Positions 27,725 to 32,738 of a stretch of 64,000 nt of DNA are shown here, piece by piece. Each line of letters starts with the position of its first letter. The stretch's first letter is position 1. The position numbers were made by a program, and so were the translations under genes. This DNA is from Halobacillus massiliensis (lineage in GTDB: Bacteria > Bacillota > Bacilli > Bacillales > Halobacillaceae), in contig NZ_LT800499.1 in the NCBI RefSeq assembly GCF_900166625.1, positions 3,545,213-3,609,212 on the forward strand. Direction: 5' to 3'. A model generated the notes under the pieces. That model was not told where the DNA came from, did no database searches, and was given only the letters and a program-made list of their open reading frames with translations.

Positions 27725-28738
27725 CTACCTTTCAATGCTTGATGACCGTATGACAAGCTCCGGATCCACTTTAACCGGATGGATATCGTTGTTTCCTTGA
27801 ATAAGGTCATTGAGCATATTAGCAGCCAGTTTCCCCAATTTCTGTTTATCTTGTTTAACTGTTGTAAGCGGGGGATCACTGTATCGACAGGCTTCAATAT
27901 CATCGCAGCCAATCAGCTGAATATCTTCAGGTACAGACAGTCCTTTTTCCTTAATCGCTTTCAGGGCTCCGAGTGCCATCATATCTGAAGCAGCAAATAC
28001 TGCTTCGGGAAGTTCTTTCGTCTGCAGGATTTCTTTCATAGAATCATAGCCGCTCTGCTCGAAGAAATCTCCAAACTTCACCCATTCTTCCTTAATTGAC
28101 ATCCCGAATTGCCTCATGGCATCAATAAATCCTTGATTTCGAATGCCTGCTACTAAAGAATCCTGTTTCCCGCCTATATAAGCAACCTTTCTTATTTGAT
28201 TTAAGTAGAAAAACTCTACGACTTTTAATCCTATTTTTGCGTTATCCGTCATAATATAACTTGATCTTGGCCCATTAAACTCAAGGTCAATACCAATACA
28301 AGGAGTATTGCTGTTAGAGATCTCGTGAATTTCCTCTTCAATTTCATCTCCTGCAATGATTAAACAGCCATCGACATGAAAATGCTTGCATCTCTCTAAA
28401 TACTGGCTTTCTCCCTGATAAAATTTTTCGTTGGAAAATAAGAGGAGATCATATCCTTGGGCACCTACTGTTTTCTTAAACGTATTTACTACCTCATTAA
28501 AAAACGGGTGCTTAAAGTCGACATTAATTTTCCCTGCATATATTAAGCCTATCAAGTTTGATTTCTTAGTAGCCAATGATTTTGCTGAAAACGTCGGCTG
28601 GTATTTGGTATCTTTAATGATTTTATATACTTTATCTCTCGTTGCTTCGCTGATCCCGCCATAATTGTTGATTATTTTTGAAACAGTGGCAGGAGATACA
28701 CCAGCCATTTTAGCAATATCTCTAATTGTCAGATCCAA
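27725..28738 (-). CDS. LacI-family transcriptional regulator of the beta-glucan cluster
   Basis: 337 aa: helix-turn-helix (IRDIAKMAGVSPATVSKIINN) and hinge at 1-60, periplasmic-binding-like effector domain after that (IGLIYAGKINVDF...). TTG start at 28738 behind AAGGAGATG. It stands between the permeases and GH1. The three GAAACCGGTTTC-type palindromes in this cluster (26322, 31976, 32091) have the centre CCGG expected for a LacI family dimer, so it probably represses until a gluco-oligosaccharide binds. Confidence 0.9.
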   Translation of the reverse strand: MDLTIRDIAKMAGVSPATVSKIINNYGGISEATRDKVYKIIKDTKYQPTFSAKSLATKKSNLIGLIYAGKINVDFKHPFFNEVVNTFKKTVGAQGYDLLLFSNEKFYQGESQYLERCKHFHVDGCLIIAGDEIEEEIHEISNSNTPCIGIDLEFNGPRSSYIMTDNAKIGLKVVEFFYLNQIRKVAYIGGKQDSLVAGIRNQGFIDAMRQFGMSIKEEWVKFGDFFEQSGYDSMKEILQTKELPEAVFAASDMMALGALKAIKEKGLSVPEDIQLIGCDDIEACRYSDPPLTTVKQDKQKLGKLAANMLNDLIQGNNDIHPVKVDPELVIRSSSIER

Positions 28739-31968: not shown

Positions 31969-31994
31969 CATTTAGGAAACCGGTTTCCTAAATG
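31969..31994 (-). promoter_or_regulatory. 26-bp perfect palindromic operator (O1)
   Basis: CATTTAGGAAACC and its exact reverse complement meet at 31981/31982. It lies about 30-55 bp downstream of the transcription start, so a bound LacI protein would act as a road-block. Confidence 0.88.
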
Positions 31995-32089: not shown

Positions 32090-32103
32090 GTAAACCGGTT
32101 TCC
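32090..32103 (-). promoter_or_regulatory. Upstream LacI-type operator (O2)
   Basis: GTAAACCGGTTTCC with 10-bp palindromic core AAACCGGTTT (32092-32101), centred 115 bp from O1. The two could be bridged by a tetramer, looping out the promoter. Confidence 0.75.
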
Positions 32104-32154: not shown

Positions 32155-32170
32155 ATGTAAACGCTGACAT
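32155..32170 (+). promoter_or_regulatory. cre box between the beta-glucan operon and the structured RNA
   Basis: TGTAAACGCTGACA fully matches TGNAANCGNWNNCA. It is centred about 60 bp upstream of the predicted RNA start, the distance used by CcpA-activated promoters, and about 138 bp upstream of the divergent operon start. Confidence 0.75.
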
Positions 32171-32221
32171 TTTATTCGAAAAACTATGTACCTTTTCTTC
32201 TTTCAATGTTATAATAAAAGT

Positions 32222-32690
32222 GTACAAAAGATAAAATCAATTAAATAAACAGTTTAGGCGGCTCAACCATCTAAAATTCGTTTCCATTACGAATAGATTT
32301 GATGGTCATAAAAGGGAACACAAAACCTGTGGATAGGAATGGGAAACGCCCTGTTATGAGGCCATCCGGATTGGCTCTGCATGTATAAGCATAGCAGAGA
32401 GAGCAGATTTACCCATTTAATTTGTAAGACTATGACCCTAATATAGGTTTGAATCCCACCTATAAAGGTAGTTGTACAATTAAGTGTATTTTTGCAAAAA
32501 CCACCCTTTCTTTAAAAAAGGAGGGTAAAAATTAGACTTAACCACTGACTGGAGGAAGCGGATTTTTAAGAATTATTCTCGAGTTATAGTTGGAAAGAAT
32601 GTAAGATCGCGAATGATTCTTACATGGTTGGGTCACCTAAGCTGTTTATCCTCTTACCTGTTCCTTTAAGGAACAGGTTTTTATTTTTTA
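32222..32690 (+). ncRNA. Large structured non-coding RNA, class not recognised
   Basis: No coding frame, but strong RNA signals. A TATAAT -10 (32210-32215, weak -35) precedes and an intrinsic terminator (32657-32690) follows. The ends are locked by a long-range helix: 32245-32258 pairs with 32636-32649 and 32260-32268 with 32626-32634, 23 of 24 positions counting G-U, with one C/A mismatch. Inside lie ATTCGT/ACGAAT (32275-32293), CTCTGC/GCAGAG (32375-32399), TATAGGT/ACCTATA (32442-32464), CCCTTTCTTT/AAAGGAGGG (about 32504-32525), and ATGTAAGA/TCTTACAT around a GCGA loop (32599-32625). From memory it is not tmRNA, RNase P, SRP or 6S RNA. The size and closed topology recall large bacterial RNAs such as OLE, without the usual neighbours. 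No downstream gene on this strand is near, so it is not a riboswitch leader. Confidence 0.7.
32657..32690 (+). terminator. Terminator of the structured RNA
   Basis: CCTGTTCC (32657-32664), loop TTTAA, GGAACAGG (32670-32677), then TTTTTATTTTTT. Confidence 0.92.
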
Positions 32691-32702: not shown

Positions 32703-32738
32703 AAAAGGGATCACCTGTATGGATGGTGATCCCTTTTT
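32703..32738. terminator. Terminator of the carbonic anhydrase gene
   Basis: AAAAGGGATCACC pairs with GGTGATCCCTTTT around 9 nt; A/T runs on both sides make it bidirectional. Confidence 0.88.

Follow-up and report, generated by a model that had tools for sequence, protein, structure and literature searches.

What kind of gene occupies the roughly 465 nt of Halobacillus massiliensis DNA that a preliminary description, made from the letters alone, had called a large structured RNA gene of unknown class? The window analysed here is the whole 64,000-nt stretch of contig NZ_LT800499.1 that contains it, and positions refer to that window. The description had reported a non-coding unit with a promoter -10, a helix joining its two ends and an intrinsic terminator, had found it unlike tmRNA, RNase P, SRP or 6S RNA, and had set aside a riboswitch. 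From the comparisons given below, it is almost certain that the locus is a genuine gene, encoding a new structured RNA that stands alone.

The locus in Halobacillus massiliensis

The predicted transcription unit has the following features.

32222-32688, plus strand: predicted transcript of about 465 nt, starting 12 nt past the first base of the -10 and ending in the T tract of the terminator
32207-32215, plus strand: extended -10 promoter TGTTATAAT, with TATAAT at 32210-32215 and TG one base upstream at 32207-32208
32245-32268, plus strand: 5' strand of the terminal helix P1, ATAAACAGTTTAGGCGGCTCAACC, pairing at 23 of 24 positions, with covariation in the family
32626-32649, plus strand: 3' strand of P1, GGTTGGGTCACCTAAGCTGTTTAT, partner of 32245-32268
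32656-32688, plus strand: intrinsic terminator, a stem-loop at 32656-32678 with the T tract after it

The unit and the 24-position end pairing, 23 of them paired, are as the preliminary description had them. The minimum free energy (MFE) of the full RNA is -149.5 kcal/mol, compared with -100.5 (sd 5.54) for dinucleotide shuffles (z -8.84), and none of 100 shuffles folded as well; with P1 removed, the interior of this copy gave a z of -4.6 (40 shuffles). No ORF of at least 40 aa lies inside the RNA on either strand. A promoter scan did not list the extended -10 and found no -35, and support for the promoter comes instead from its conservation across copies. In the 4.3-Mb genome the RNA is present as a single copy by DNA and profile searches, a second profile match (E 0.77) being the 5' end of this same RNA read on the opposite strand.

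The RNA has minus-strand neighbours on both sides, a sugar ABC transporter operon with its LacI regulator on one and the gene for a eukaryotic-type carbonic anhydrase (PF00194, 32767-33585) on the other. Because of this orientation the RNA is not a leader. Downstream come the terminator and then a gene of opposite orientation, so that no co-directional gene follows directly, and a riboswitch was rejected on these grounds, as had already been argued. Further elements were seen nearby. Two palindromes of the AAACCGGTTT type, at 31974-31989 and 32092-32103, bracket the sugar ABC operon's divergent promoter and are likely operators of this operon, which carries a LacI-type regulator (27725-28738). 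An inverted repeat, AAAAGGGATCACC...GGTGATCCCTTTTT at 32703-32738, separates the RNA from the carbonic anhydrase gene and is probably the minus-strand terminator of the latter.

The RNA family and its terminal helix

A blastn search for homologues, one of the checks first proposed, was productive: of 150 genomes 29 gave a match, including the one that holds the window, although family membership is unconfirmed for two weak matches (L029, L030) that lie within the interior. The exact pattern of the P1 3' strand was found in 43 stretches of a collection of 84,980 species genomes. Apart from one labelled Pseudomonas, these belong to Halobacillus, Thalassobacillus, Pontibacillus, Salipaludibacillus, Neobacillus, Cytobacillus, Robertmurraya, Mesobacillus and Bacillus, nine genera of Bacillaceae. 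A looser P1 pattern allowing three mismatches matched 5 of 398 genomes of the class, own included, against 2 for a reversed control pattern; one loose match, L075, was rejected as chance, being an apparent coding region without such an RNA. A profile built from 5'-end sequences (R2) recovered 25 of the 26 genomes known to carry the RNA, missing only the genome with the short copy L076. Within one order it was positive in 38 of 249 genomes, representing 19 of 106 genera; some of the weakest among these 38 fall outside the 51 loci in which P1 was checked. Within a sample of the class, 5 of 299 genomes matched R2, namely the window's own, two more from its order and a pair from a different order; this pair made up all the genomes drawn from that order, and each has two loci with both P1 strands visible.

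An initial 5'-end search under-recovered copies with CTCAGCC, most of which were added by later searches. Of 72 copies kept, one (L016_1147) was excluded for taking its 3' strand from a neighbouring tandem copy, while its promoter was retained in the upstream set. The remaining 71 complete copies, many of them closely related, measure 158-1003 nt (median 409). Several Halobacillus genomes hold two to four copies, partly in tandem. Copy L076 (158 nt, minus strand) has kept P1 (23 of 26 pairs) without the H1 motif described below and without a recognised terminator, and is a minimal or decaying member of the family. In L072, a record named 'Pseudomonas sp. ISL-84', the RNA and its neighbour genes are Cytobacillus-like, and the record is probably mislabelled or contaminated.

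In 69 of 70 copies P1 is followed within about 45 nt by the start of a terminator, as against 65 of 700 shuffles. Flanking genes are common to copies within lineages. A conserved gene partner was rejected: the largest neighbour cluster (11 of 43 loci, taking the first RNA match in each) consists of antisense ORFs of at least 70 aa that lie across the RNA region or across a tandem copy, for the most part the RNA itself, and that count against the main reading proposed below; the largest cluster of true neighbours comprises 7 of the 43. Short possible reading frames, up to 81 aa in one copy, raise the question of an mRNA for a small protein, or of an RNA both coding and regulatory. We consider this very improbable, and a coding gene was rejected, since the longest sense ORF has a median of 39 aa across the 71 copies and of 42 aa in shuffles, and the window copy lacks an ORF of even 40 aa.

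P1 pairs at 22-26 of 26 positions in all 51 loci checked, while the next best pairing site in those loci reaches 15-20, with the exception of one tandem array (24). The 3' strand was chosen by best pairing plus a bonus for GGTTG, a procedure that leans to pairing, although the next best site is far worse. After removal by hand of 12 near-duplicates from 58 P1 pairs, 46 distinct rows were counted. In these, 94.1% of P1 cells are paired, compared with 86.4% after shuffling. Two-sided changes affect 12 of the 26 pairs (5.8 shuffled, 3-7 in slid controls) and 82 cells (29.9 shuffled). A tree-based null was also applied to all 58 rows, using our own script in the manner of R-scape, with substitutions reshuffled on the tree; 2 of 1326 column pairs reached E<0.05, and both are P1 pairs. 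The other 24 P1 pairs are not individually significant because P1 varies too little. The sole mismatch in the window's P1, C32259/A32635, falls at a position that is unpaired in 21 of the 46 rows. The inner half of P1 is near-invariant in sequence. G-U pairs predominate at positions 17 and 19 (31 and 39 of 46 rows), a pattern that fits an RNA and makes a DNA-level inverted repeat unlikely. Covariation had been named in advance as the check on the end helix; P1 does covary, and the comparison indicates that it is selected as RNA and kept by covariation.

Terminal inverted repeats, here of 24 bp, and multiple copies in some genomes would also be expected of a DNA element such as a MITE that makes no functional RNA. 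Of the readings weighed here we hold this to be the least probable. Promoter and terminator stand at fixed places in most copies, the two favoured G-U positions would be mismatches in DNA, neighbours are shared within lineages and the window's genome has one copy. Nor was there a match among mobile sequences, with one query each: the window RNA against a plasmid collection, the RNA of Bacillus sp. MM2020_4 against a phage collection, and one exact P1 pattern against viral contigs. A protein-neighbour scan of the viral contigs gave nothing useful.

Comparison of the whole window with Rfam 15 (4227 families) gave no hit at the gathering threshold, so that a known Rfam family was rejected, and low-threshold scans of the window RNA and a Neobacillus copy came near no cut-off. 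Among 28 relative loci searched at gathering, no hit fell within the RNA; five hits in three loci all lie outside it and represent Bacillaceae-1 RNA (L037, L124) and pieces of group II intron (L098). One Bacillaceae-1 RNA (RF01690) is at 1423-1489 of L124, about 330 nt upstream of the RNA and on the same strand in a Pontibacillus-type genome, and a second is some 4.5 kb from the RNA in L037. The intron pieces (L098, 74-675) are just downstream of the copy in Bacillus sp. EB600.

OLE RNA (RF01071) had been named as first suspect. The window's genome has OLE as a gene of its own elsewhere (C2:2048554-2049181), and likewise 6S (C2:1910417-1910604) and RNase P RNA (C2:2208427-2208811). With no hit in the window and these genes located elsewhere, OLE was rejected, as were 6S (RF00013) and RNase P (RF00011), divergent or not; tmRNA and SRP likewise have no Rfam match in the window. 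The reading first given, an RNA gene of unknown class, is supported by the absence of Rfam matches, the homologues and the covarying P1. Size class and terminal pairing are alike between this RNA and several known large RNAs, and it might be a divergent member of one (OLE, RNase P, 6S, tmRNA, SRP, ROOL, GOLLD or raiA). Given the lack of an Rfam match and the separate genes for the three located, there is very little chance of this.

OLE is itself a large structured RNA of Bacillota extremophiles and is found in the same genomes as the new RNA, which differs from it in matching no model, in having its own separate gene and in showing no conserved neighbouring protein gene (43 loci). ROOL and GOLLD are also large ornate RNAs, and a passage of PMC12286853 describes them as homo-oligomers by cryo-EM; the new RNA, unlike them, has no Rfam match, and its phage and viral searches were negative with one query each. 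The raiA motif or ModT RNA is another conserved structured RNA of Bacillota, as stated in part of PMC11706538, and again the new RNA differs in having no Rfam match. Judged by these comparisons it is the RNA class that is new, with no match to any Rfam 15 family, large orphan structured RNAs being already known as a broad kind. No description of it was found in the literature searched, coverage of which was partial, and an earlier account elsewhere is possible; a text search of papers for six 16-nt P1 strings gave 0 matches.

Alternative helices in the interior

Inside P1 the following elements were recognised.

32275-32285, plus strand: 5' strand of the long-range helix P2, forming 11 pairs with 32554-32564 in the MFE fold
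32554-32564, plus strand: 3' strand of P2, GGAAGCGGATT, from the MFE fold and a comparative pairing count
32276-32294, plus strand: local hairpin H1, 32276-32281 with 32289-32294, exclusive with P2, from consensus folds
32551-32580, plus strand: local hairpin into which the 3' strand of P2 folds when P2 is not formed, in consensus folds of Halobacillus-type copies
32599-32625, plus strand: hairpin H3, 32599-32608 with 32615-32625, directly abutting P1 on its 3' side, from consensus folds

The interior sequence is lineage-specific. Without P1, interior z values in 13 copies range from -1.1 to -7.0 and are weaker than -2.5 in four, and fold covariation is scant (3 of 94 pairs with four sequences, 5 of 80 with ten, P1 pairs included in both counts). 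Among the local hairpins inside P1, recurrence across lineages was seen for H1 and H3. The hairpin singled out for its GCGA loop did not hold up as a conserved feature, as relatives carry ACGG, GTGG, AAGG, CAGG, TAGG and others in its place; a conserved GNRA loop was accordingly rejected. Also rejected was a tRNA-like T-arm (GGTTTGAATCC), the sequence of which is not conserved. Neobacillus-type copies have a different hairpin, CATCrG...CTGATG, in place of H3.

A conserved strand, GUUCGUUUCC or GUUCGUUCCG, lies just inside P1. An H1 helix of at least 6 bp is present in 59 of 65 distinct copies and in 21% of shuffles. P2-type pairing is found in 64 of 70 copies (L076 left out) and in 6.4% of shuffles of single bases, for example GUGUUCGUUCCG with CGGAACAAACAC and GAGUUCGUUUCC with GGAAACGAAUUC; the partner strand is usually 52-91 nt before the 3' side of P1. 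The best P2 site is weak or off its usual place in L100, L106, L129-L131 and L138. Both counts are set against shuffle controls, and as statistics they are not phylogeny-aware, many copies being close relatives. Since H1 and P2 use one strand, any single molecule can form only one of them. When folding was constrained to the one or to the other, the two energies lay within 5 kcal/mol of each other in 57 of 70 copies, the median gap being 1.25 in favour of P2, which is the better in 47.

The long, near-perfect terminal helix, the wide differences in copy length (158-1003 nt) and interior sequence, and the several, partly tandem copies of some Halobacillus genomes would also suit a processing precursor. 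P1 would then be a substrate of RNase III type, and the lineage-specific interior would be released as a small or base-pairing RNA with targets differing by copy. We regard such a precursor as unlikely, because sequence conservation of inner P1 is well above what a generic nuclease needs and the P2 strands are retained on both sides of the variable interior.

Upstream region and proposed function

Upstream of the promoter in the window is one further element.

32156-32169, plus strand: cre-like box TGTAAACGCTGACA, centred at about -59 from the predicted start, with no mismatch to TGWNANCGNTNWCA

An alignment of 49 promoters of the family has T at -15 in 94% and G at -14 in 96%; it leans that way because its members had to have A at base 2 and T at base 6 of the -10 and because TG earned a bonus. 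Their consensus reads AAAnGTTCACAAATTTGTCACAA at about -64 to -42, then GTGnTATAATAAAAGTGTAA, lower-frequency bases included. Cre-like boxes were counted in 60 of the 72 upstream regions, near-identical or short ones having been removed and the -10 being misplaced in some (e.g. L023, L115, L137). A box within one mismatch is present in 35 of the 60, compared with 2% of shuffles, and a perfect match with central CG in 17, the window's among them. Of the 35, 24 are centred at -58 to -62; the other 11 include six at -33 to -35, where CcpA binding would rather repress. The remaining 25 regions have no box within one mismatch. The box is absent from Neobacillus and its close relatives, for instance L090, L092-L094, L096, L098 and L099, and is perfect in L101 (Robertmurraya) and L103 (Cytobacillus).

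In B. subtilis, a cre upstream of the -35 goes with activation, as at ackA, pta and ilvB, with lev as an exception, according to a portion of PMC3463425. By sequence match the boxes at -58 to -62, in 24 of the 60 regions, lie upstream of -35 as in CcpA-activated genes, and the RNA gene may be sugar-controlled via a putative CcpA site.

The CACA repeats of the upstream regions may also be read as ResD- or Rex-like. By eye, TTGTGAAnnnnTTCACAA is found exactly upstream of L086, L088 and L124, and with one mismatch at the same place in L103, L129 and L131; the family upstream consensus given above points the same way, and the Rex site is TTGTGAAW4TTCACAA in an extract of PMC2883068. The same RNA gene might thus be constitutive or redox-controlled, its cre-like boxes being partial matches to another palindrome of Rex or ResD type. 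We find this rather improbable in view of the perfect cre matches with central CG, the window's included. Rex-like boxes upstream of some copies recall RoxS/RsaE (RF01820), a Bacillota regulatory RNA under ResDE and Rex control whose Rex site in roxS is downstream of the start, as part of PMC5419742 reports; in the new RNA the boxes are upstream. The RsaE model differs in having 112 positions, and at E<=0.001 no RsaE was detected in the window's genome.

Own promoter, own terminator and covarying structure, the marks of a large trans-acting non-coding RNA, are all present at the level of sequence. Our proposal is that a stable RNA accumulates with its ends clamped by P1. Inner P1, which is near-invariant and favours G-U pairs, would together with H3 form a protein-docking site, so that the RNA would work as an RNP. 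The GUUCGUU(U)CC strand would form H1 first, during transcription, and later be captured by the 3' part as P2; this change, central to the RNA, may be a refolding step or a two-state switch. When sugar is plentiful, CcpA bound near -60 would activate the RNA in Halobacillus and several relatives; in lineages that have no cre box, a related element of CACA repeats may serve instead. We hold the reading as a whole, these proposals included, to be evenly balanced: a non-coding RNA of a new family that stands alone, acts in trans and is highly structured. Its mechanistic parts (RNP docking on inner P1, refolding from H1 to P2, activation by sugar) range individually from tentative to evenly balanced. 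The boldest form, which we put forward as a long shot, is a new bacterial RNA machine under carbon control with a conserved core of two folds (H1/P2), acting as a switch or swapping strands into RNA oligomers, and with an interior free to diversify between lineages and copies.

A passage of PMC11109978 presents large bacterial RNAs that lack an assigned function as rare. The RNA reported here is spread over many genera of Bacillaceae, several of which have named strains, and coexists with OLE RNA in the same genomes. The single copy in the H. massiliensis genome and the predicted sugar-controlled promoter would provide an experimental handle, and two conserved, mutually exclusive helices of near-equal energy would make RNA refolding a directly testable question in this family.
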